From Fragilariopsis cylindrus CCMP1102 (Eukaryota > Bacillariophyta > Bacillariophyceae > Bacillariales > Bacillariaceae): 64,000 nucleotides of DNA. The translations under genes and the position numbers were made by a program. The stretch is from NCBI GenBank assembly GCA_900095095.1, contig FMBT01000325.1:186001-250000 (forward strand), given 5' to 3'. Numbering within the stretch: position 1 is the stretch's first letter; each line of letters starts with the position of its first letter. Below are positions 43-42,881 of the stretch, in pieces. Under the pieces are notes generated by a model. It had not been told where the DNA came from, did no database searches, and saw only the letters and a list, made by a program, of their open reading frames with translations.

Positions 43-2763
43 GTTATATACTTGAGTGTTGTCGGCGCTTCGTTCGAGGTATTCCCGTTCAATCAAAGCC
101 TCGATACGTTTTTTCACAAGACGAGGGTTGGGACTGAAAAAGTTCAATTGAGCAAGAACTTCTGACAAAAGTTGTTGATGCTGAAGAGTTTTACGTGCTT
201 TCATGATCCGAACAATGGCAGCCTCAATCGCAATCGTTCGATCCTCCTCAACGCGCTTCGTATTCAATTGTCCATCCAACGAGGCCATCGGGATACGAAT
301 TTTACGCATATTGCTAGAGAATTTCTCGTTGGCGGTGAAAGAATCCGTAGTGTTGATCTTGTTACTGGCAGGTGTCTTTTTGATCACTTTATACTTTCCA
401 CAAGAAAGAGAATGCATCAAAGGCTTCAGAATATTTTCTTCCACATTAAGCTTTGTTGCCAATTCTGTGAACGTCATAGTTGCACCACCATTCATAGCAT
501 CCAACGCCACCGCCTGAAGTGTAGCGACCTGAAGGTCGTACGACTTCTTTCCAAAAATCCCACGAACCGATGCATTCCCTTGAGAAAATACCCAACCCAA
601 TTTTCTCTTTTGATGCTTTTGATCGTGCCAATCCTTGAAGATGTCCATACATTTGGACATTTGTGGTGTAAGAGCAATTGCGGGACTCTTATAAGTAGGC
701 CAGAATCCCGTCGTTAATACTTGTACACTAAAATCAAGTTTCGTATCAACAGTCGCAGTTGATTTCCGAATTCTGATCGTTGTCCAGCACCAACAGCGAG
801 ATCATTAAGCATACCTTCCATCTTGGATGTAAATTGCGTTCCACACTGCATCTTGAGTTTGGCAATCATCGATTTTTCCGCATCATTACTCGTGGATCGT
901 TGACTGAGTAGTCGCTTTGCGAGTTGATTACGGTAGATTTCAGCGAACATATCCTTGTCCGTCAAGTACGAAAAGAGTTGAACGATTTTTTCTAAATTGG
1001 CATCAACTTCCTTTTCACTAAGTTTTTCACCACCACTTTTGAGGATTCTGTCGCAGAACGTCGACATCAATTCTGCGTTTGTGAACTGACCGACATTTTT
1101 GTTGACGATCTCGACGAATGCATCCTTCAATCCCTTTTGAAAGAGCGAGTTCCCACCAAAGTCTCCTTTACAACACCTAGGTATTTTTCATGAAGTGCCA
1201 TAATCGACTTAACGAATTTTGGATCGTCATTCTTGTCCTTCTCTCCACTGTCCAGACGGGCTTTGCGACGATTGATTATATCTTCACCCATCGATGTGAT
1301 AAAGTTCTGTAATATATTAGCCATAGGATTAAGGCCGTTCTCGAGTCTACCAAATAGACGGTACATACGTTGAAGATCTTCCGACTTGTCGTTCTGCAAT
1401 AGGGCCCGGCATCCAGATCCTTCCTTTTCTAGCAGAACCATTTCGACACGTTCTAAAATTTCTTCCTCGACTACCTTCAAAATCTTGGCTTCCGAGGACG
1501 TATGGAGGTAATCCTCGACACGCTTCCGCTCTGCGTCTAATGCATCTTCAGCCTTGATAAGATAATCTGGAGTAGAATCGTTGATCCAATCTTCACGCTT
1601 TTTGGCATAGTATTCTCGCGTAGAAGTAAGTAGTGGTTCTTCTAGATCGGTATTGTATGCATCGAGGGTACCCATTCCCATACTCTCGTAAAGTTCAACA
1701 ACACTCTTCACTAAACTTTTATCGATGATCTTTCCTTCACGTTCTTCGTTGATAAGTCCATGTATTGCCGAGGTCGTATCGCCCTTTATTTCGTCGTAGA
1801 CATTAGTTCGAAAACATCGTAATCCCGCTTCACTTAAAGTAGGTAAACTATGATGTTTGACGTAGTACCGATCGAGGTAGGTAAAGAACTTCTTTAACCA
1901 TTTATTCATAATTTGATGATTTTGCCAACGGTGTTTGAGTTCCGATATAGAATTGTTCCACCCTGACTTGTTTTATCACGTAATGCGGGAAGAACGTTGG
2001 TAGTAAGGTATCGTTCGATCGTTTCGCCATGTCGTTGGTATAGCTCACGAGACCAATTGTACGGAGAACGTTGTGTGCACATGTCGTAACATGTTCTATA
2101 AAACAAAACGAAATGAGAAAGTGTCAATTAAATCAAACGAAGAGTTAAAAGTTAGAAGAATCCATATTTGAAACTGATATTTGAATGACAACAAAATACC
2201 ACGACCACTAACAAATAACTGCGCCGAATGTATATTATAATAATTTTAGTTTTAGTATTTAAGTTTACTCACGTGTAGATCTGAACGTATTCCTTGGGTC
2301 CAAATATACTACCCGAAAGGTCGCCGTTCAATAAGCCTTCCAGTCTATCGATGGCCTGAAAAAGAATGAAAAAGGAATAGCAGGAGAAAGATAATAAATC
2401 GTGTGTAAGAAAGAAAATATCTGAAAATGATTTTTTAAATTTAAATCAACTTCTTGTTGTAGTCGTCGGTCGGAGACATTTTTACTATTTTTGTCTTCGA
2501 GAACTCTCGGCCGTAGATTACTATTCTGACGGTGAAAGTTCGAGCCCTAGGAAAATTTAGATCCATTTTTTGACACCCTCTTACTAGTTTTCCGCGGGAG
2601 GGGGCTTCAAAATTAAATTCTTATATCCAATGATCGATTCGATTGATCCAACAATCATATTATTCTCCTATTTCTTTCTTTCTCTTACCTTAGCTTTAAT
2701 TTCATCATCCCATCCCTCATCAAGAGGAATGATTCTTTGGTTATTGCCCGCATTTCCTGCCAT
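43..2763 (-). CDS. CUL1: Cullin (CUL1-type) SCF ubiquitin ligase scaffold, 3' end outside window
   Basis: This is the scaffold of a cullin-RING E3 ubiquitin ligase, which holds substrate adaptors at its N-terminus and RBX1 plus E2 at its C-terminus. Exons are 2763-2689, 2355-2273 and 2095-43. The start MAGNAGNNQRII is followed by IDRLEGLLN, LYQRHGETIERYLT, FFTYLDRYYVKHHSLP and GGNSLFQKGLKDAF, all characteristic of CUL1-like proteins. The C-terminal winged-helix region has IEAAIVRIMKARKTLQHQQL, which contains the neddylation-site lysine region, and KKRIEALIEREYLER. A GTAAGT donor follows QVYN at position 42, so the last few residues (usually YVA or similar) lie beyond the window start. The reading frame shifts near 1945, 1150 and 770. 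Each shift is cured by one extra base beside a short homopolymer (for example T3 to T4 in T-F-G-G-N), so I judge the gene intact. CUL1 rather than CUL2, 3 or 4 is my best reading, with less certainty than family membership. Confidence 0.9.
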
Positions 2764-3255
2764 CTTGGTCTAGTTGTTCTCTTTAGAAATATTTGGACGA
2801 CCCACAACTTTTTTTAATTGTGCTACAGGGTCGAGGAAGGCGCTTCGACGCTGTCTCTTTATCTTTTGCATTCGATTTTTTACCGTGTAAACAAGAAGGC
2901 GCGAAACGAGTTATTGATGAATATTGAATCGAATGAATCGAATTGAATCAGTACAGTAATTATAATTCATTCGTGGAAGTCTGCGCCATTAAGGATAGAG
3001 CTTTTTTGCTACACAGAGAATGTCTTGCGATACAGTACTATGATTGGCCGCATGGTGAATAGCTCAGAATTTAGAAGGCAGATCGGATCCACTCAGAGCT
3101 TTGCGTGTGACACGTGAAGTAATTCTGAATCACAAAAATACTGTCGAAATATAAATGCCAATTAACAAATTCGTTTCTCGATACTAGACATATTATCTTC
3201 TATTAAACCAAAAAAAAACATTCATATACCAAATATACAATATAATCAATTTACA
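2764..3255. other. Divergent intergenic region, cullin and plastid-type gene
   Basis: About 490 bases separate two divergent start codons and must hold both promoters. The 70 bases before the plus-strand start are A/T-rich with an A9 run. I see no gene and no convincing known motif. Confidence 0.5.
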
Positions 3256-12251: not shown

Positions 12252-15200
12252 CTACGCTACTTCTTTGATTTCCTCATCCATGTATGCCTCAAGTGGTGGA
12301 CAGGTACAAACAAGATTGCGATCACCGTATACATTATCAACCCGTCCGCACGTGGGCCAGAATTTATTTGATTTGATCCAAGGCGCTGGATAGCACGCAG
12401 TCTCTCGGCTGTATGGGCGTTCCCATTTGTCAGAGATCATATCGTCCATAGTGTGAGGAGAATTGTGCAAAGGAGAGTCTTCGTAGGTCATCCTTCCGCT
12501 CCCAATGTCATCGATTTCCTTTCGGATGGAAAGCATGGCATCGCAGAAACGATCCAGTTCTTGCAAATCTTCTGATTCCGTGGGTTCAATCATCAGAGTA
12601 CCAGTCACTGGCCAAGACATGGTCGGTGAATGGAAGCCGTAATCTTGAAGACGTTTCGCGACATCTTCTTCTGTAACACCGGTAGCTGACTTGAGTGTTC
12701 GTAGGTCAAGAATAAATTCGTGGGCACATTGTCCGTTCTTTCCTACAAATAATACATCGTACGCTCCACTCAAACGAGCCGCCATGTAATTAGCATTCAA
12801 AATGGCTTGACCGGTAGCTAATTTTAGACCTGGTTCGCCGAGCATCTTAATATACATCCAAGATATAGGAAGAATTGCTGCAGATCCGAAAGGGGCGGCT
12901 GCAATTGCTCCATCTGTTTTCGGGACACATAAATCGCTCCCGCAAAGTTTTCCGGAGGCCTCCGGATCGGATACATGTCCAGGCAAGAAAGGAGCAAGGT
13001 GAGCGGCGACTCCGATAGAACCAACGCCCGGTCCACCTCCTCCGTGAGGGATACAAAAAGTCTTATGAAGATTCAAATGACATACGTCAGCACCAATAAG
13101 ACCGGGGCTGGTGAGTCCAACTTGAGCGTTCATGTTGGCCCCATCCATGTAAACTTGTCCCCCCGCATCATGAATGGAGTCAATGATTTCAACAATACCC
13201 TCTTCAAAAACTCCGAATGTTGATGGGTAAGTGACCATGAAGGCAGCGAGGCTTTCACGATGCTTCTCAATTTTAGCCGCTAGATCCTCTGCGTCGATAT
13301 TTCCCTGATCGTCATTGTCTACAACTACGACCTTCATCCCTGCCATGACTGCACTGGCGGGGTTCGTTCCATGAGCACTCTTAGGAATTAGGCAAATATT
13401 TCGGTGTCCTTCACCCTTGGATGCGAGGTAATCTTTGATAGCCAAAAGTCCAGCGTATTCGCCCGTGGCTCCCGAGTTAGGTTGTGCACTCACAGCAGCG
13501 AAACCGGTAATTTCAGCAAGATCTGTGTTCAGGTCTTCGATCAGTTCATGGTAGCCCTTCACTTGGTCGTGAGGAGCGAAGGGATGGATGTCACAAAATT
13601 CCGGCCAAGTGACTGGAATCATCTCGCTGGTTGCGTTTAGTTTCATGGTACAAGAACCTAATGAGATCATTGAATGGTTTAACGCTAAATCCTTGTTTTC
13701 GAGTGACTTCAAGTATCTTAGCATTTGTGTTTCCGAACGATGTTGATGGAAGATGGGATGGGTTAAAATTTCTCCCTCTCGTGCGTGCTTCGATGGTACA
13801 GTCGTCAACGAATCGTCCATTGCTGTCACATCCGGTGCTTCGAGACGGAATGCACCACATAACAAAGCGAAGAGATCGTCACGAGTAATACCCTCACCCA
13901 TCGATACACCGACTGTGTTTCATCGATGATGCGAATATTCGCTCCAGCTTCGGCAGCTCCTGCTTGGACTTCAGCTGCAGTTAATCCTTTAGAAGACACG
14001 TCAACCGCGATTGTGTCGAAATATTCTCCTGCTTCATTCAAAACGAGCTTGAACCCTCCTGCTGTTAATTCCCTAGCAGCCACCCGTGTTAATGCATGTA
14101 CGCGGCCTCCTATTTCCTTAAGTCCATCTGGTCCATGGTAAATTGCGTAGGCGGCAGCCATATTGGCCAACAATGCTTGAGCAGTACAGATATTGGAGGT
14201 AGCCTTATCACGACGGATGTGTTGTTCTCGTGTTTGCATCGCCATCCGAAGACATGGTTTACCAGCCGTGTCGACTGTGACTCCGATGATTCGACCTGGC
14301 ATTTTTCTGGAGTACTTGTCCGATGTTGCCAAAAAACCTGCATGGGGACCACCAAATCCCATGGGTACACCGAATCGTTGTGCCGATCCGACGGCAATGT
14401 CTGCTCCCCACGATGATGGAGGGGCCAACTTTGTCAATGCTAGGAGATCCGTGGCAGCGATGACCATTGTGTTATTCTCTTGAGCACGATCCGTAAAGGA
14501 TTCGTAGGATTCTCCATCTGATTCGAGTGCACCGTACGTGTTTGGATATTGGACAATCGCTCCACAATAATCGTTGCTCGAGAAATCAACATCCGAATGA
14601 TCTCCCTTCACTACCTCAATTCCGATCGCCGTGGCACGGGTTTCGATGAGTCCTATTGTTTGCGGATGTACATCGTTTGACACAAAGAACTTATTTCGTT
14701 TGTTCTTACCCTTCCCTCCCTTGATCGCAAAACACATCTGCATGGCTTCTGCCGCAGCACTGGATTCATCTAACAAGGATGCAACAGCCATCGGTAATCC
14801 TGTCAAGTCCACCACCAACGTTTGAAAGTTCAATAACATTTCTAGACGTCCCTGTGATATTTCTGCCTGATACGGTGTATAGGCTGTATACCAGCCTGGA
14901 TTCTCTAACATATTCCTTAATATAACGGTTGGAACTTGTGTGTCATAATATCCCTGTCCGATATAGGATTTCATCACTTTGTTTTTCACGGCGAATTTTC
15001 TAATTTGTGTCAGTGCCTCCGATTCCGACATTGGATCCTCCAACGATAAGGGTTTACTGGCCATGATATCGGCTGGAACTGTCGATGTTGTGAGCTCGTC
15101 AAATGATTCGAAGCCGATAGTTTGTAACATGGATGTTGATTCTTCAAGTCTTGGACCCACTGTGAGTGAATGAACATTAAAAACGAAGGAAAAAAACGAG

Positions 15201-15577
15201 TGAGATATATAGATGATGCTGTAAATGAAGGAATTGGAGTAATTTATTCATACGAGATATTGCAGTGTGGGTATTCTTCCTGAACAACGACACAACCCTC
15301 GAACAGCGAAGATTTTCTTGAATCAAAGTCACTTACTGTGACGACGGGCAAATGTATCAGTCATGTCCAATGCATCCGCAGACAAGACAGAACCATAATG
15401 GTACGACCGAGAAGCAACAGCGTTCGTATTATTGTTCGAAACTCCGAGACTATTTCTTCCAAGTAAGAGCGACGAAGACGAGCGTAATCGTAGGTGACGT
15501 TGTATTGATTTTACAGACGTTGATGATGACGACGAGGCCAACATTCTTGTCTTCATCATGATCATATTTCCACTCAT
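12252..15577 (-). CDS. GLDC: Glycine decarboxylase P-protein, mitochondrial
   Basis: This is the PLP-dependent P-protein of the glycine cleavage system. It decarboxylates glycine and passes the aminomethyl group to H-protein, a step of photorespiration and one-carbon supply. Exons are 15577-15337 and 15159-12252, giving 1,049 aa with one frame break allowed, which is normal for the eukaryotic enzyme. The N-terminus is rich in Arg, Ser and hydrophobic residues ([18 protein letters not shown]), a mitochondrial presequence. The mature start is DTFARRHMGPR across the intron. Conserved parts include [34 protein letters not shown], and [17 protein letters not shown] with the PLP-binding Lys. The end matches the family ([20 protein letters not shown]). 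A frame shift near 13910, cured by one base (giving [13 protein letters not shown]), is best read as an assembly error. Confidence 0.96.
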
Positions 15578-18125: not shown

Positions 18126-21100
18126 ATGACGAGAACCAATACGCACCAAAATGGGTCCCGAGTTAGGGTAGGGGTTCGCGTCCGCCCTATGGCATCACAA
18201 GAGATTAGACAGGAAGGAAATTGTAGTCTCAATATTGATTCTTCCACCATTCGCATGGGTAAAAGGAGATTCACATACGATGCAGTATTTGACTCGAATT
18301 CTGGTCAGGCAGATTTGTACGAAAGTGTCTCCTCGCCATTACTAACGAGCTTTGTCGATGGATATAACGCGACGGTAAGTACATATTATATTTACAGTAA
18401 AACCGTCTTTGATCTATATAATCATCCATTTATTCCTACTTTCTAACTCTAATCTTTTGATCCAATCCCTTTAGATTATGGCATATGGGCAGACTGGTTC
18501 TGGAAAGACTTTTACTATGGGGAGTGAAGCACATATAGAACCCGAAACTTCATCCCATACAGGATTGATACCGAGATTCATCACAGATTTTTTCCTTGAA
18601 ATGCAACGTAAAAAGGCAGCATCGGATAAAGGAGTAGAAGGGAACCAAGTCCTGCTTGATTACAGTCTGAAAGCATCCTTCTTAGAGGTATACGGGGACA
18701 ATGTTCATGATTTATTAGACGCAAATCGTACTTCTCTGCCATTGCGAGAAGACTCAACGGGTGCAATCAGGGTTACTGGATTGACAAGCCGTGATGTTTC
18801 TACTACGGCAGAAGCCTTGCAAGTGCTACACGAAGGAACGATGAACCGAACTACCGCAGCGACCTTGATGAACGATACTTCAAGTCGATCGCATGCCGTA
18901 TTTACCATACATATGTCACAAGTAACTAGACTTAATGCTAGTGACAGCGTAGACGTAACAACCACCTCACAATTCACATTTGTAGACTTGGCAGGAAGCG
19001 AAAGGATGAAGAAGACTGGCGCAGAGGGTGCACGTGCACGGGAGGGTATAAAAATCAACGAAGGACTATTGGCACTAGGAAACGTAATCAACGCGCTTGC
19101 CGAAGATAAGCCGGCAAACGAAAAAAAGGTTCATGTACCATATCGCCAGTCTAAATTGACACGTCTTCTTCAGGATGCCTTGGGTGGAAATAGCCAGACG
19201 TTATTCTTGGCCTGTGTTTCACCTTCCGACACAAATGCTAGCGAAACTTTATCTACCTTGAACTACGCCAATCGAGCTCGAAATATTCGCAATGCACCAA
19301 CTAAAAATGTTGATGGAGCATCCGCTGAACTTCAACGTCTCCATAATATCAATCGTGTCTTACAGTCTGAACTGGTAAAAGCACGCTTTCAAGAAGGTGG
19401 TGCAACGGCAGACGGAGAAAATGGGATTGGTAAGGTCGACGATGCTCTTTTGAAGCGTGACGATGTTGAAGCGTATATCCAACAGGTCTATAAGGCAGCC
19501 GGTGCAATGGCGAGTCCGAGCAGGGCTCTTCTTCCCTTTGGTATGTCTTCCAACGATTTTGTTCCTAGCGAATTACATACCGTGAGTAGGCAGGGGGGAG
19601 GTGATGGAAATATCGGTATAATAAATATTAATTCGAAGACACAGAACCGATTGTCTGAAAAATTTGACCATTCAATTCTAGAAGATATCAATCCTGATGA
19701 AGAAATGGCAATACTTGATCAGTTACTCGAGCTTCAACAACAGGATCATGAATACGAGAAAGCAAAGAAACAAGACGATTTCAAGCTAGAGGAGATGGAT
19801 GGGGAACTAGAAAAACAAGAATCCATGCTGCTTCAATTACGTGATAGTTTGAAAGTATATCATGGATTAAAGGGGAAATATGAAGAACTGATGGAGGAGG
19901 TACAACAGCTAGAGAGTGAAAAGTCTAGTCTGGCGAAGCAGCTAGATCGAGCGGTATCCGACCCTACGATAGGGTGTTCAGCAGCTATCAAAAAGAAGCT
20001 CGAAAGGGTTGAGATGAATCTTTCTCGTGCACGACAAGATACGCAAAATCATCGACAGAAGCATAGATTAGCAGAGGATCAGGCACGGAAATGTAAAGTA
20101 CTTGAGAGGAAAGTTACCGAGCTAAAGCATGCCAAGTTATCCCTGCAAAAGAAGCAGAAAGAGGAAGCTGCTCATTACAAGAAAATGACGGACGCAAAAA
20201 CACAACAATTGTTGGCATTGAAACGAAAAGCAAAAAATGCAGACAAGAAAATGTCAAAACTTGAAAACGAATTGAACATTCAGAAGAAAAACCTTGGTAA
20301 ACGAACACAATACTGTACTAAGATATCGGAGAAGCTGAAAAAGACCGAAAGTCATCTGACGAAGTTGCTTGCAATGCGACAACGTGACCTTGTAAAACGC
20401 AGCGGTACTTTGGTTGGTGGAAGATCGTCCAGTATGCAACGCTCTTCAGGACGAGGTTATACTACTAACATAGCAATACCAGAGACGCATTCAACACCTC
20501 TATCAGATGAAGAAATTAAAGCGACCAAGTATATCTTTGATAGAATGGTGTTGGATAAGGTAAAACAAGCTCGCTTGAAGAATAAGTATGAAGATCTTGT
20601 CGCAACTTATAGCGAAACAATGCGTAACATTGTATCCGAGGTTAAGCTGTTGAAAGAAACACGCGGCAAGTCATTAGGTCGCGAATGTAACTCAGTCGAG
20701 ACATCTATGATGATCAAAGATTTACAGGAAAACATTGTTGACATGGAGTTCAAACTCGAGCTTCTCGATTCCGAATTGCAAGATATTTCTACTCAGATGC
20801 CTGAGAACATTGTATCGTCTGAAGAAGATATCGACGATGCAGTAGCAACGATAATGAAGGGAATGTCGACTTATGCATTGCAATCCATCCTGCTGGAAAC
20901 GTTTTCGAAATTTGTTGAAGCAGAGGTACGTACGCCACATAATTATCTATCACTATTTTTACTGTTATTGATCTCTTATTTTCTTCTGTACACTAACACA
21001 TACAACTTTCCTTCCCTCTATGAATAGACGGAGCGTCAAACCGTAACAGAATCGCTCCAACGAAAGGATGCAGCTTTGCTTGGCGTTGAGACAGAAGTCG

Positions 21101-23424
21101 ATTCACTCAATTTTAAGTTAAAGTCACTGTCGAAAGACCTAGCACATAGAAAGGATCTTGACGAATCAGGAACAGATCACTTTGAGGTTGTTAAGCAATT
21201 GACAGAGATAAAAAGTAAATACGAGGATAGTTTGTCAGAGGCACATATCAATCTAGAACAATCAAATGCAAAGATTCTTCGGTTGGAAACTTCGTTGAGT
21301 ACCGCGCAAGTAGAGTTATCAGTATCAAAAGAAAATCTAGCTGTGACGAAGGCATCATTAACAAAGGCAGATGGAAATAGTGAAGTTGAGAAGATGGTTG
21401 CTTCGGTACAGGAGGTTTGGGGAGAACTTGGGGCTGATAGTTCGTTTCGTAAGGAAGCACAGAAAAGGATTGAATACTGTCTGGAAGACACATGCAAGAA
21501 TGTACTGGATAGCGCTATTATAATGAAGAGTTCGACAGAACAAGAAATAGGTAGTCTTTCGTATCGACTACAGATGATGAGGACAGCTTTAGGAGTTTCT
21601 GCTCAGGATCCCAACGACTCTCTCAGTGGAATGTCTTTACTTCAAACTTTGAAAAAGCTTCGGGATGCAGTTAGTAATTTAAAGGTGCCATATCGCTTCG
21701 CAGCTGCTAGAAGACGCAAGATTGTGGAAGCAACTAGGGACCTTACAACGGCACTTGGGTTGTCTACTTTAGATTTGCACAACGATCTAAAGGTTTTACT
21801 CCAACATGGCAATAGTAGACCAATCGCAAAGGATGAAGAAGGAAGCATGACTCATAATACAACAACGTCTAATAATGACAACTCGCCTTTCACTGCTCTT
21901 CCATCCAAGTGTCTTCAAACAGAGTTCCTTACAAGATGTGATAGTCATGTTACAGAGTTGAGAGTTGCGAAGTCAGAAATGCTTCTGAAAAATAGGGAGT
22001 TGCAACAAAGCATCTCGGATCTCAGTGGGGAAATGCATTTGAATGATCGACAATCTTTAGAACTCATTGAAAGTTGGATCAAACAAAATGGGTCTACCTA
22101 CCCTAAATGGTGGAATTCAAGATTTGCAGGGGACATCCTCTGTGATATAGGTCAGATGAAATTTCTTTCAATCTCATCTACGGAAATTTCACAACATCTG
22201 GAGTTATTATGGAAATCATTATCGAGTGAAGCAGCCTGTCGACGTTCAATGTCCGAAACACTCAAATCGGTGATTGAGCATGCTCAAAAGACCCTCCTCA
22301 ATATTGTTGGAAGAGAAATTGATGCCAGCGAAGCTTATGCTGACTTTCATGATGCTCTCTATCGTTTACCGCGTCTATCAAAGGATCTGATTACTTCTTG
22401 TATATCCGAAGTAGAGGCTTTGATTGACGGCATTGAGGCAATGACTCAAAGTGAAACCGAAGCGCTGATTGTCGTATGGGATGCGCTTAAAATTCCATCC
22501 AGAGATCGAAGGAACTTCTGGGGAATACTAGAAAAATCAGAATCAAACATGGAAACAAGTGATAAGAACCCATTTTTTGAAAAGTTTCCTGGATCAAGTT
22601 TTTCGAGCGAAGAGTGGATGGTTGATGCGATTGCTACAGCAACAAATACCAATGATACGTTGGACGTACGACTGAAGAATCTAGAACAAATACACAAGGA
22701 AGTTGAAAGATTGCGATCAAAGCAAGGCATAAAGAGTCGAATTCTATCGTTGGATTCGGAAATTCGAATCATGACCACCAAATTATTGGACTTTGAGGAG
22801 CTTCAGTGCAACAAGCAACGATTGTTCACCAAAAAGAATGGCGGGACAGCCCTTTTAAAAGAGGAGCGTTTCAGAAAGCAGATGCAAGGCAAATTTACAG
22901 CTAATCTCAAACAGCTGGTGAGCCTACTTCGATCATGGGAAAGAAAAGAAAATGCGTCCTTCGACGACTCGCTTTTGAGTGACGATGTACGGGAACTTCT
23001 GAAAATAGACCCAAATCAAATGGATAATTGGGTCGAAAATAGGACAAAGCTCATGACTTTGAGGACAGTGAAAACACCGAGAAAGAGAACATTCGAAGCT
23101 TCAAATTCTTCAAGTCGACGCCATGTAGAAAAAAATGGTTCACGACATGCTTCGGGGCTTACGCCGCCTACTAAAAGGATGACTACTTCATCTTCTGTTA
23201 GGATCGGATCTATTAGTAGAGCAGACGATAATTCGATGAAAAATGAGGGGAAACAAGATCAAAAGAGTACAGGTCTTCGCGTACGCGATGTTAACAATGG
23301 AGGCGACGGAAGTTCAAGATCTCCTAAAAGGCAAAAAAGGAAGAAAGCCCTGATTTCGCTACCACCATTTGGTCGCATCCTTGCAGACTCTCCGACACAA
23401 AATATTAATGATGATAATATGTAA
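18126..23424 (+). CDS. Kinesin-4 motor fused to a PRC1/Ase1/MAP65-like microtubule crosslinker
   Basis: Exons are 18126-18374, 18475-20925 and 21028-23424, giving 1,698 aa in a continuous frame with no breaks. The motor (about residues 11-365) has the P-loop GQTGSGKT at 88-95, switch I NDTSSRSH at 216-223, switch II DLAGSE at 254-259, and kinesin-4 signatures YNATIMAYGQTG and EGIKINEGLLALGNVINAL. A long coiled-coil stalk runs to about residue 1015. From about 1025 on, it reads like PRC1/Ase1/MAP65: VQEVWGELG followed by helices, ALIVVWDALKIPSRDRRNFW near 1376, then LLDFEELQCNKQRLFTKKN with GGTALLKEERFRKQM near 1500-1525, matching the PRC1 signature (RFTNRGGNLLKEE). The tail is basic, Ser/Thr-rich and has TPRKR and SPKRQKRKK like PRC1. 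KIF4 and PRC1 are known partners in other eukaryotes. The second intron lies in the stalk, so the two halves are joined by splicing. Confidence 0.88.
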
Positions 23425-23526: not shown

Positions 23527-25488
23527 TTACATTTTATCTTTTTTTAGCCAGACCAAGATGACACAAACATTATCAGCCGATCCTCTCTCTAGCGCTTCAT
23601 GTGCAACAAATCTAGCCATTTTTCTTCTTCTAAATTCCGGTGTCAAGATTATTTTTCCTTTCTTCGTTTTAACACTCTGGGTAGGGCACTCCAACATCTC
23701 ATGAACAAAATCAACAACTTCTTGGCTCGTCATCACGTCCCAAAGGCCGTCTGATGCCAACAACTTTTTAATTATATTAGTTTTTATAGCAGATAGCGCA
23801 AGCGACATAATAATGATACTAAAATGAGATTTTTTTTTCTACCGTCTAGATTTGAAATAAAGCTTGTAACGATTAAGAACGCACACGCACACCAAAAAAA
23901 TTAACATAATCTTGAACTTACGAAAAATTCGTCTTCGTCGTCATTAACAGGGAGAGAATCTATTTCAGCTTCACTCGAAACGACAGGCTTGGCAAATCTA
24001 TCTCCAATCGCTCTAGATAGTGAAAGATCTTTCACACGATATATCTCCCCATAGGGATCCCATTGAACGTCTTCTCCCATGGATCGGATTCTAGCTTTCT
24101 CTCTTTCGTCACTTGGTTTATGATCTCTTGTAAGATCAACAGCCTTTTTTCCTCTACACAAGATGGCTCGACTATCTCCGACATTCGCCGATATCAATGT
24201 CCGGTTTCCGTCTTCGCCTACGTGTACGATTACTGCTACGGCCGTACTCCCTTGATATTCAAAATGATCGTGTCGCAAGGATTCTCGTTCAATACGTGAA
24301 AATGCACCCCGAATCGCAGCCGTGTGGCTCTGTATCGAAGGAATAGATTTCTTATTATTATCATTATTATCGTTTTCGTTATTATTGTTGACCTCGTCAT
24401 TGTCATTGTCGTTGACGTCGTCGTCGACTTGCATTTCATCAAGCGTTGATCTATGAGCTTCCTCGTGATGACGTTGAGTTAATGCCTTGGAATAAAGTCT
24501 ATGTACATGATCTCGTAGCATACCGCTAACACCAGCCCCACCGTGTCCGTCAAAGACAGCGGCGAAATGGCCACCGTTGGCAACCGAATAAGTATCTTCC
24601 ATAGTCCATCGGACTCCTTGCTCGGCACTTTTTGATACCTGCTCTCACGATGATGATAATGGACAATGACAACACAACGAAAAGTAAATATTAATGACAG
24701 ATCAACATAAAGGAGAAGCAACAAAAGTAGAGAATAAATAAATCAACAACAAGGAATAAAATCATCAAATCAATTATTATTCACATATCAATCAATACAC
24801 AGTGTAATAATAATAATCCAAAAAGAAGATCGTGATAAATAAATTTTAAAAATCCACGCACCTGATAAGGATCTTTTGCAATAGAATCCTCGTATGCTTT
24901 CACATCGTTATCAGATTTTTGCTTCTGCATATCAGAAGAGGAAGAAGAAACCGCCGCTGGAGCGACCACTGCTGCATCGACGGAAGGTCCACCTCCTCCA
25001 TCTCCTCCTCCACCCTCACTTCCGCCACCTCCTCCACCCTCACTACTAGTACCTGTCGTTAATTTAGGAGCGGGTGTTGTGGTTGTGATATTTGTTGTCG
25101 TTGTATTAATAACCGGTGATGACGTATTAGCGGCAACAAAATTCAATGAACATGCGGTCAATACGGCGATCGTCGAGGCTAAAAGGAAATTATCATTATT
25201 TTCAGCGGAACTACCAGTATTAGACGTCGATGATGCTACTGCTGTTGTCGAAGCCAACAGGAAAGGGGATGCTGGTAATAAATGCATACCAGCCGTTGTG
25301 GATAAAGCACGACACGATATCGTCGGGGAGGACGGTATCTTTTGTCGTTTTGGTGCTCGTACTATTGTGGAAGCGGAAGAAGCCGTAGTAGTACCGGTCG
25401 AAGTCGATATAATCCTGCTATTGCGAGCTCGACATGATGATGACAATAGGGCTGAACGTGTCGCCGTACAAGCTGCACATGATGCCAT
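23527..25488 (-). CDS. PP2C-type Ser/Thr phosphatase with N-terminal membrane anchor
   Basis: This is a Mg/Mn-dependent protein phosphatase. Exons are 25488-24862, 24638-23922 and 23763-23527, summing to 527 codons (526 aa). The catalytic domain shows MEDTYSV, VFDGHGG with the metal-binding Asp and Gly, SANVGDSRAILC, LTRDHKP, LSLSRAIGD, LLASDGLWDVM and GSADNVCVILVWL in order, so it looks active. A 42-residue Asp/Asn-rich insertion follows the first helix. Upstream lies a 200-residue extension: an Arg/Ser-rich start (MASCAACTATRSALLSSSCR) resembling a mitochondrial presequence, two hydrophobic stretches (MHLLPASPFLLASTTAVA and FLLASTIAVLTACSLNFVAA), and a Gly/Ser-rich linker. This suggests an organelle-membrane-anchored phosphatase; location is inferred. 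Translation could only begin further upstream at non-ATG codons, so 25488 is preferred. It converges on the kinesin gene. Confidence 0.92.
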
Positions 25489-40742: not shown

Positions 40743-42170
40743 TTACAAAATTGATGATCTCCTTTTTCGCCGTGATCTAGTAGCGTCTGGATTTCCTTTG
40801 CAAAAATGGACCTTAATTGCACCGAGTGGACATAGATCAGGTTCTCCCATTTTTGGCACAAATTCTACTGGTAGCCGATTTTCTTGACCGTGATCGTCGT
40901 GCAGGCACTCGTGATATTTGGGAGGTGATAGTCGAAACCATCCCCTCGGTTTCTTCGTTACGCAATCTTTTTCTTGCATAGACATATACAGGTCAGGAAC
41001 AGATACCCAATACGGTGCGTATTTGAAACGAGCAACATCAAGGACTAGTACTGTGTCACTGTCTTCGTGGTACGCTCCAACTGGGCTGAAATGTCCGTCA
41101 CCTGTTTGATTCAAAGCAGTTCTAGAGAAAGAGACGACCAGTATCGGTTTATGTTTCGATATCGTATCTGATAGTATAGATCGAATGTCACTTCGGAAGT
41201 CTTCGAGAGAAAACGAATGTTCCACCTCGTCACTATTCATAGTGTTTCTATCATTATCGTTTCTGTCACCATTAGTTGTATTATTGTTCTGATTGTCATG
41301 TGGTGACGATTGTGGTGAATGCGAATATGATGTATGATTATTGTTGGAGGATGTCGTTGGTCGTTTGAGGTCAATAGTAAGTCCATGGCAACGTCCCAAT
41401 CGAGTAAAATCTTCCATTACAATCCCCTTTCGTCGGATACGTTCCGCACTAAAGCAGCATCGGTCCAGTAGAACATCTTCTGATCCATAGAACCTCCATC
41501 CACCACGCCAACGAATGTTTGGATCAATACACAATGCATTAAGACACATTAATAACGTCGTTACACCACAAAATGCAGGATCTGATTGATTTACAAAATG
41601 TTCTGTTAAATTCCAATAACTTTCTGCTGTCCCACCTGCAAATGCTTCCATCAAAAATTGTTTCCCCCGTTTTGATGAAAATGCGGTCAACGTTGTAGGT
41701 AGTACACGTTTGTGTACCGTGTACTTAGGTTCCGGTAGGGGTGGTGGTAAATCCTCGTCCAATTCATCCTCGTGTTGATCACTACCACATGCAAAACGAG
41801 ACGTCGTCGTCGTCGTTGTTGTTGTTATGGCCGTCGTGGGATTTATTTTATTATTATATGTCGATTTCTGTTGTAACTGTGATTGTGATTCTACCGCCGT
41901 GATCGATGTTGTCTGGTTGTTTCTATTCACATTATCTAGATAATTGTTCAAGTAGTCGTGATTATTCTCGTCTTCATAATGTTCCCACGCGATCGCTGAA
42001 GAGAAGGGACGTTTATAAGACGACGACGACGATGTCGACGGCGTTGATGATGAGATCGAACACGAAGTAGAAGTCGCGCTGGAATAGAACATTGTTCGGG
42101 ATGTATTCTTTCGAAATGCGATCCGACAATGGATTATTTTGCACAACTTATTTGCTGTCGACATGGTCAT
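40743..42170 (-). CDS. PCS1: Phytochelatin synthase with N-terminal extension
   Basis: This transpeptidase makes phytochelatins from glutathione and detoxifies cadmium and other metals. Single exon, 475 aa. The papain-like domain starts near residue 165. The catalytic Cys is C201 in QSDPAFCGVTTLLMCLNA, His is H360 in TGDGHFSPVGAYHED and Asp is D378 in LVLDVARFKYAPYW; all three triad residues are present. A 50-residue Asn/His/Asp-rich insertion (about 271-319) splits the domain before the helix SLEDFRSDIRSILSD. Before the domain lie 160 residues; the first 60 (KIIHCRIAFRKNTSRTMFYS, then a Ser-rich part) resemble an organelle presequence. The usual Cys-rich C-terminal sensor is lacking and the protein ends soon after the domain. 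Probable function is clear; location is inferred. Confidence 0.93.
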   Translation of the reverse strand: MTMSTANKLCKIIHCRIAFRKNTSRTMFYSSATSTSCSISSSTPSTSSSSSYKRPFSSAIAWEHYEDENNHDYLNNYLDNVNRNNQTTSITAVESQSQLQQKSTYNNKINPTTAITTTTTTTTSRFACGSDQHEDELDEDLPPPLPEPKYTVHKRVLPTTLTAFSSKRGKQFLMEAFAGGTAESYWNLTEHFVNQSDPAFCGVTTLLMCLNALCIDPNIRWRGGWRFYGSEDVLLDRCCFSAERIRRKGIVMEDFTRLGRCHGLTIDLKRPTTSSNNNHTSYSHSPQSSPHDNQNNNTTNGDRNDNDRNTMNSDEVEHSFSLEDFRSDIRSILSDTISKHKPILVVSFSRTALNQTGDGHFSPVGAYHEDSDTVLVLDVARFKYAPYWVSVPDLYMSMQEKDCVTKKPRGWFRLSPPKYHECLHDDHGQENRLPVEFVPKMGEPDLCPLGAIKVHFCKGNPDATRSRRKRRSSIL

Positions 42171-42881
42171 TATTGAATGAATATTTATATTGGAATTAAT
42201 TCAAAAACGCAGTAGAACACCTGATGACTTCAAATATGATTATAGATAGCTATCTCGATCGATTTATATTCTTCAAAACAACAAAAATCCTTATCATTAT
42301 CGATTATGTATGAAATCTTTGGTTAACTATTTTTTCCTCATACGCAATGAATACGGTTATAGCGTTAGATGTGCGACAAGATGAATTATGATGAAACTTT
42401 GTTCAAGTTTACGACTCACAAAAAAATAAATTAATAAACTTTTGGCGCGCTTGTGAACTGTGTAAAACGCGTGAATTTTTTATCTGCTTCATTATTTTCA
42501 AATATTGTTATGTGAAGAAAAATGATGTAATAATCGTCACAATGACATCATTGGCTATGAAGAGTGGTCAGTCGTAAATATTATGTTTGAGGTACTGAAC
42601 TAGCTGTTTTATCGCATTTTTTAATTTATGGGCTTATGTGAAATTGCTCTAGATGTGCGATTACGTCATGATCTAATGTGTGTTGTTTTTCCGATGATCG
42701 AATCGAATGAATCATCGGAAAATTAGAAAGCTATTGTGTGTAAAACTTGTAGAAACAATCCTCAATCATCCTCACAATCATAATTTCCAATCATTACATC
42801 TTTCAATTGGAGTCAAATCGTTAGAATTCAACAAGAAAAGACAAGAAAAGACAAGATAAGACAAGACAAGCATCGATCAGA
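42171..42881. other. Divergent intergenic region
   Basis: Some 710 bases between phytochelatin synthase and fibrillin starts. It has a palindrome-like TTGGCGCGC near 42442 and, just before the fibrillin start, an array of ACAAGAAAAG-type units at 42829-42871. Confidence 0.45.
42829..42871 (+). repeat. ACAAGAAAAG unit array in fibrillin 5' leader
   Basis: Four to five degenerate copies of a 10-base purine-rich unit end about 10 bases before the fibrillin ATG, so they would lie in its 5' UTR or core promoter. Confidence 0.7.

Follow-up and report, generated by a model that had tools for sequence, protein, structure and literature searches.

The gene described here lies at positions 18126-23424 of a 64,000-nucleotide stretch of the genome of the diatom Fragilariopsis cylindrus CCMP1102 (contig FMBT01000325.1, positions 186,001 to 250,000; contig C97 of the 67.9-Mb genome G000 in our numbering), referred to below as the window, and it joins a kinesin-4 motor to a microtubule crosslinker. 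Three exons on the forward strand, which carries all parts of the gene, are found at 18126-18374, 18475-20925, and 21028-23424 and form one open frame of 1698 codons with no internal stop. The encoded protein begins with a kinesin-4 motor, continues with a stalk domain of the kinesin-4 kind, and ends in a MAP65/ASE1/PRC1-type crosslinker that is diverged yet complete. Exon 1 encodes residues 1-83, the N-terminal part of the motor, within the Pfam Kinesin match at residues 21-354; exon 2 encodes residues 84-900, comprising the remainder of the motor and the coiled stalk; and exon 3 encodes residues 901-1698 and the stop codon, its 798 residues forming the MAP65/ASE1/PRC1-like part. Intron 1 (18375-18474) is a 100-bp GT-AG intron that leaves the joined frame open, and its junction, DGYNAT/IMAYGQTG, agrees with relatives. 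Intron 2 (20926-21027) is a 102-bp phase-0 GT-AG intron whose last three bases form an in-frame TAG. A preliminary description of this locus had proposed that kinesin-4 and PRC1 are fused here, and the fusion gene is confirmed as observed. The frame continues from motor and stalk into the PRC1-like part without a stop, and the C-terminal motifs that had been named beforehand, including a basic Ser/Thr tail with TPRKR, are present in the translation.

The kinesin motor domain extends over 18159-19287 (residues about 12-354) and is split by intron 1. It is matched by the Pfam families Kinesin (PF00225, E 3.2e-102) and Microtub_bd (PF16796, E 3.4e-21), and its translation features the P-loop GQTGSGKT, NDTSSRSH, and DLAGSER. 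When the exon 2 part of the motor was compared with the sequences of the Protein Data Bank (PDB), KIF4 was the first match (2.2e-70), followed by 7x4n and then KIF7; 7x4n is annotated as a kinesin-like protein, and we take it to be the kinesin-4 KLP-12. Downstream of the motor, the kinesin-4 stalk domain KIF21A_4th (PF25764) is found at 19732-20229 (residues 503-668; E 2.8e-8, 34.1 bits against a cut-off of 33.1), and a genome-wide search with this family returned a match at the same place. By sequence comparison, the motor and stalk are those of a kinesin-4, and the earlier reading of a motor with its P-loop and both switches, followed by a stalk, stands. The protein resembles KIF4, KIF7, and KIF21 in its motor, which is nearest to KIF4 among solved structures, and in its KIF21A_4th domain, but it differs from them in running on into a crosslinker after the stalk. 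While the tail of KIF4 bears a dense cysteine cluster, the 14 cysteines of the window protein are scattered over its length and form no such cluster.

The crosslinker part is best recognized through its family. The window protein alone does not reach the curated cut-off of 26.9 for MAP65_ASE1 (PF03999), scoring 13 bits (E 0.042) with the piece encoded by 21658-23421. Exon 3 scanned whole gave no MAP65 match in Pfam, the window gene is absent from the matches of a genome-wide MAP65 family search at E<=0.001, and, with exon 3 by itself as the query, the PDB sequences yielded chance matches only. A protein search with exon 3 as the query found 35 relatives at E<=0.01, and 13 of them bear a precomputed PF03999 label (including P0013, P0017, P0018, P0020, P0022, P0023, and P0025 to P0029). 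An alignment, A1, was built from the window sequence and 32 C-terminal pieces or partial proteins chosen from 74, with full-length proteins and some near-duplicates excluded; MAP65_ASE1 matches at E<=0.01 were obtained for 24 of its 33 rows (best 6e-12), the window being among the nine non-matching rows. Six relatives were also scanned singly, and five of these exceed the curated cut-off (P0013, P0017, P0067, P0077, and P0085), with P0025 below it at 23.7 bits. The profile stretches in these relatives cover both the N-terminal half (1-238 in P0067, 3-271 in P0085) and the C-terminal half (319-414 in P0017 and P0013). The A1 profile aligns with human PRC1 (4l3i) in two collinear stretches (E 0.0039) and scores 21.3 bits against a separate MAP65 of the same genome, the best of 100 shuffled sequences reaching 0.9. 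In HHalign, the separate MAP65 reaches an E-value of 1.5e-4, versus 0.15 for the tail region of a different kinesin-4 from this genome. Thus, the MAP65/ASE1 profile match that had been anticipated for this part holds through the relatives and fails for the window sequence by itself, whose sub-threshold score is explained by its being a single diverged sequence with orthologues that pass. With the family included, the MAP65 assignment of the C-terminal part is secure.

The predicted fold leads to the same family. When the model of the crosslinker part was submitted to Foldseek, all four PDB matches at E<=0.001 were PRC1 chains (probability 1.00 over about 560 columns, with low TM-scores), which bears out the likeness to PRC1 put forward at the outset. 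The N-terminal dimerization and rod part (21373-22041, ends approximate) is collinear with human PRC1 chain positions 20-266, A1 profile positions 116-338 being aligned to 4l3i, and corresponds to Pfam positions 1-271 in relatives. It includes Trp1031 (21418-21420), which is aligned with W26 of the predicted kinesin-docking pocket of PRC1 and is Trp in all 33 A1 rows. That pocket is formed, by prediction, by I25, W26, M54, E57, and E58 of PRC1, which would grip a motif in the kinesin tail (PMC10620760). The I25 position is Ile in 21 A1 rows, Val in 8 (the window included), and another residue in 4; with a numbering offset of 4, the A1 consensus retains E57 and has other residues at the M54 and E58 positions. 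The following rod segment (22045-22551, ends approximate) includes residues that are extra with respect to PRC1, as indicated by the Trp-Lys spacing and by a confident helical model. W1031 and K1511 stand 480 residues apart. The matching Trp and Lys of PRC1 (chain positions 30 and 391) are separated by 361, and those of the separate MAP65 by about 395, which makes the fusion rod about 85-120 residues longer. Modeled alone, the extra stretch has a confident predicted fold (pLDDT 88) with no PDB match at E<=0.001. This stretch is also highly conserved and helical, as in GRExDASEAYAxFHDALFRLP.

The spectrin-like microtubule-binding domain (22699-23058) is aligned with PRC1 337-444 and contains the basic residues R1498, K1511, and R1514 within KQRLFTKKNGGTALLKEERF (22819-22869), all three aligned with PRC1. 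These positions are basic in every A1 row: R1498 is Arg in 33 of 33, K1511 is Lys in 32 and Arg in one, and R1514 is Arg in 27 and Lys in 6. We take them to correspond to the PRC1 microtubule contacts R377, K387, and K390, whose numbers fit the chain offset of 4; a literature search for two of these contact residues found no paper. The protein ends in a disordered basic Ser/Thr tail (23059-23421) with KTPRKR and SPKRQKRKK, in which pLDDT falls under 50 at exon 3 residues 675-778 and 781-798. Near its end lies the motif PFGRIL followed by SP (23365-23382). A PF[G].[IL]L-type motif occurs in 93 of the 97 family sequences gathered here (shuffle mean 0.06), [ST]P follows it in 88, and KEN occurs in the last 60 residues of 52 (shuffle mean 1.75), counts that are not independent since the family members are related; the window protein has PFGRIL and SP and is without KEN. 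This PFGx[IL]L-type motif, often followed by KEN, may be a docking or degradation signal. In sum, the likeness to the MAP65/ASE1/PRC1 family lies in a dimerization end, a rod, and a spectrin-like microtubule-binding end in the same order, while the window copy differs in standing behind a kinesin, in its strong divergence, and in its longer Trp-Lys spacing.

The same architecture is found in other diatoms, as had been suspected, and beyond them. The protein searches each scored about 8000 candidates sharing most words with the query; two of them, in which the full-length query was scored over the crosslinker part only, gave overlapping sets of 42 and 45 matches. Among the 97 sequences, which include that of the window, 41 (the window and 40 relatives) combine DLAGSER with a length of at least 1400 residues. 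At least 8 of the 41, including P0038 and P0042, start after the P-loop, the first exon being missing from the record. A strict regular expression for the motor and spectrin motifs matched 36 of the 97 and missed 5 of the 41 long sequences. The long motor-bearing relatives come from diatoms and from Triparma (bolidophytes). They include Nitzschia inconspicua (P0039), Nitzschia sp. Nitz4 (P0041), a Bacillariaceae MAG (P0038), Fistulifera solaris (P0092), Chaetoceros tenuissimus (P0073), Thalassiosira sp. (P0095), Extubocellulus spinifer (P0083), Triparma pacifica (P0069), and Triparma verrucosa (P0072), the nearest named ones being Bacillariaceae/Nitzschia diatoms with 49-51% identity over the crosslinker part. 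A further long fusion is recorded for Kryptoperidinium foliaceum (P0042), which is a dinoflagellate by taxonomy; its diatom endosymbiont is presumably the source of P0042. Phaeodactylum tricornutum and Thalassiosira pseudonana are not among the named matches of these searches, which does not show absence there.

Triparma belongs to the Bolidophyceae, the sister group of diatoms, and since the fusion is found there, it most likely predates diatoms, as judged from the sequences compared. A recent fusion event private to this lineage is ruled out, as Triparma carries the fusion too. The fusion motors of nine sampled genes form one clade (support 100/98), and the three parts (motor, stalk, crosslinker) show correlated distances across the 41 long sequences (r 0.72, 0.74, and 0.91, with none of 2000 permutations as high), which fits the expectation of long common inheritance.

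The genome holds further members of both families. A separate PRC1/MAP65 gene was looked for, and one was found at C69:24015-25474 (E 7.8e-49 and 1.7e-8 in the genome-wide family search). It belongs to the same family as the fused crosslinker but is unfused and far nearer to the Pfam consensus. This gene (C69:22500-27500, local 1166-3122) reads in three frames, and the shift near local 2720, inside the conserved spectrin motif, resembles a one-base indel rather than an intron. An error of the assembly may lie behind the frame shifts, or the gene may be decaying, in which case the fusion could be the one MAP65 of the genome that is still intact. Two further kinesin-4-like genes are found at C679 and C425. 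The former has KIF21A_4th at 71 bits and was left unplaced in the motor tree because of the many long branches among the motors of the genome; its tail (C679:682500-690000, minus strand) repeats a VF[DE]RL-form motif four times when read by eye. The latter has KIF4 as its best PDB match, gave no match in the genome-wide KIF21A_4th search, and has a near-identical gene at C631. A second copy of the fused crosslinker was also sought, and none was found in the genome at E<=0.01. The preliminary description had pictured the fusion as a self-contained machine, a view made doubtful by the unfused MAP65 gene and the two further kinesin-4-like genes of the genome.

A counterpart in animals is provided by the KIF4A-PRC1 module of the midzone. 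Of the animal proteins, KIF4A docks on the N-terminal dimerization domain of PRC1, and the overlap length in vitro tracks the PRC1:KIF4A ratio (PMC6616649). The diatom protein is made of the same two families, and in both systems the C-terminal side of the kinesin meets the N-terminal domain of PRC1 (PMC6616649, PMC10620760): the order of parts in the polypeptide, read with the PRC1 alignment, joins the kinesin tail to a PRC1-type N-terminal dimerization domain. In animals the two proteins are separate, their ratio can vary, and their docking is regulated, whereas the window protein is one polypeptide with a fixed ratio and no need of a docking step. The fusion, whose architecture is observed, probably acts in the spindle as the KIF4A-PRC1 midzone module does, with both halves in one polypeptide. 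In such a molecule, the crosslinker half would dimerize and place its two spectrin ends on antiparallel microtubules, with the kinesin stalks emerging from the center of the dimer at the site that matches KIF4A docking in animals. The motors would then carry the crosslinkers to plus ends, slide or compact the overlap, and restrict plus-end growth. With one gene holding motor and crosslinker at 1:1, control would have to shift, whether to the number of copies, to the separate MAP65, or to the Ser/Thr-Pro tail and its phosphorylation. Overlap length would be set by how many copies the overlap contains and by how far the separate MAP65 or the other kinesin-4s dilute them.

The place of action is most likely the diatom central spindle in anaphase. 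Its array has been called almost paracrystalline, and adding pan-kinesin antibodies in vitro inhibits the elongation of this spindle, a sign that a kinesin takes part (PMC5192431). A more far-reaching view, offered tentatively and somewhat less likely to be right than wrong, is that the fusion serves the diatom central spindle both as a main motor and as a component of its electron-dense matrix, that its longer rod (by about 120 residues over PRC1 from one landmark site to the other) sets the spacing of the near-crystalline microtubule array, that the separate MAP65 is the remaining tuning knob, and that the ancestor of diatoms and bolidophytes hard-wired a formerly adjustable two-protein length regulator at 1:1. 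Dsk1, going by a title only, is said to be a kinesin proposed earlier for the diatom spindle; because of this earlier candidate, the role of main motor is held at lower odds, and the fusion is not called the long-sought motor.

Dsk1, as a prior candidate spindle motor, also lends some weight to an alternative possibility, namely that a true kinesin-4/MAP65 fusion acts elsewhere than in the anaphase midzone, for example in the microtubule arrays at cytokinesis or at silica valve formation. The retention of a separate MAP65 and of other kinesin-4-like genes is in keeping with this, as is the fact that in plants kinesin-4 and MAP65 proteins also serve the phragmoplast and cortical arrays. The occurrence of the fusion in Triparma speaks against a role tied to diatom valves alone, and the KEN found near the end of many relatives, though not of the window protein, would fit mitotic turnover. 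On balance, such a role elsewhere appears unlikely.

A different doubt concerns the gene itself, which could be two adjacent genes misjoined by modeling: a kinesin-4 ending at the TAG of intron 2 and a downstream MAP65-like gene, for which the in-frame ATG at 21394, shortly before the dimerization part, would offer a start. At the position of this ATG, the A1 consensus has Thr and not Met, and the 40 long relatives hold DLAGSER in the same polypeptide as the crosslinker. Three of these long proteins (P0042, P0069, and P0083) carry labels of MMETSP, which we take to be a transcriptome project. In P0042, a single-member entry from MMETSP, the sequence at the second junction is continuous (KLVESE-TENRANLEIL). 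Exactly at the position of intron 2 of the window, P0059 carries 46 inserted residues, with V first and Q last, and P0083 is without them although identical to P0059 at 1726 of 1849 aligned positions, with the qualification that P0083 is a cluster of two sequences, one MMETSP-named, and the printed letters possibly come from the other. P0043 has an insert at the same position, and the other long relatives shown have none. A GT-AG intron in phase 0, if read through, would give such ends to the P0059 insert, with GTN encoding V and CAG encoding Q. With three relatives in MMETSP records and the support of relatives for removal of intron 2, an artefact of gene modeling is very unlikely. Just as improbable is a real fusion whose C-terminal part is a generic coiled coil, MAP65-like by composition only: the sub-threshold Pfam score of the window sequence, a PDB sequence search that ranks coiled-coil constructs over PRC1, and a VIA-align table that fails to tell PRC1 from an unrelated helical bundle would allow it, but relatives above the Pfam cut-off cover both profile halves in order, PRC1 is the sole PDB protein found by Foldseek at E<=0.001, a GGxxLLKEE motif and the invariant Trp are common to the fusion crosslinker and PRC1, and the tail of another kinesin-4 fares far worse than MAP65 in HHalign.

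Elsewhere in the window, a PP2C-type protein phosphatase gene lies immediately downstream of the fusion gene in the opposite orientation (23904-24644, minus strand). A glycine decarboxylase P-protein gene at 12255-15247 (minus strand) is read in two overlapping frames (12255-13919 and 13829-15247), suggesting an intron or an assembly indel, and a phytochelatin synthase gene is located at 40746-42200 (minus strand; Pfam E 2.3e-70). ARAGORN found no tRNA in the window.

What is new in the fusion is its fixed architecture; the modules, and the partnership between them, were known before. A search of open-access full text, with most subscription papers and bioRxiv preprints outside its scope, gave no paper on a kinesin-4/MAP65 fusion among the matches listed, and neither MAP65 nor diatoms are named in the available portion of the main text of a survey that spans 1624 kinesins and 105 domain architectures (PMC2867816). 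The domain pair itself is already visible in databases as precomputed Pfam labels. The diatom central spindle was a key model for anaphase microtubule sliding (PMC5192431), and the fusion gene offers this spindle a candidate in which motor and crosslinker are a single molecule. As a natural covalent form of the KIF4A-PRC1 complex, it lets one ask if a fixed ratio still yields a defined overlap. Ultimately, since its two components are binding partners in animals, the fusion suggests that the partnership of kinesin-4 and PRC1 is an old one.

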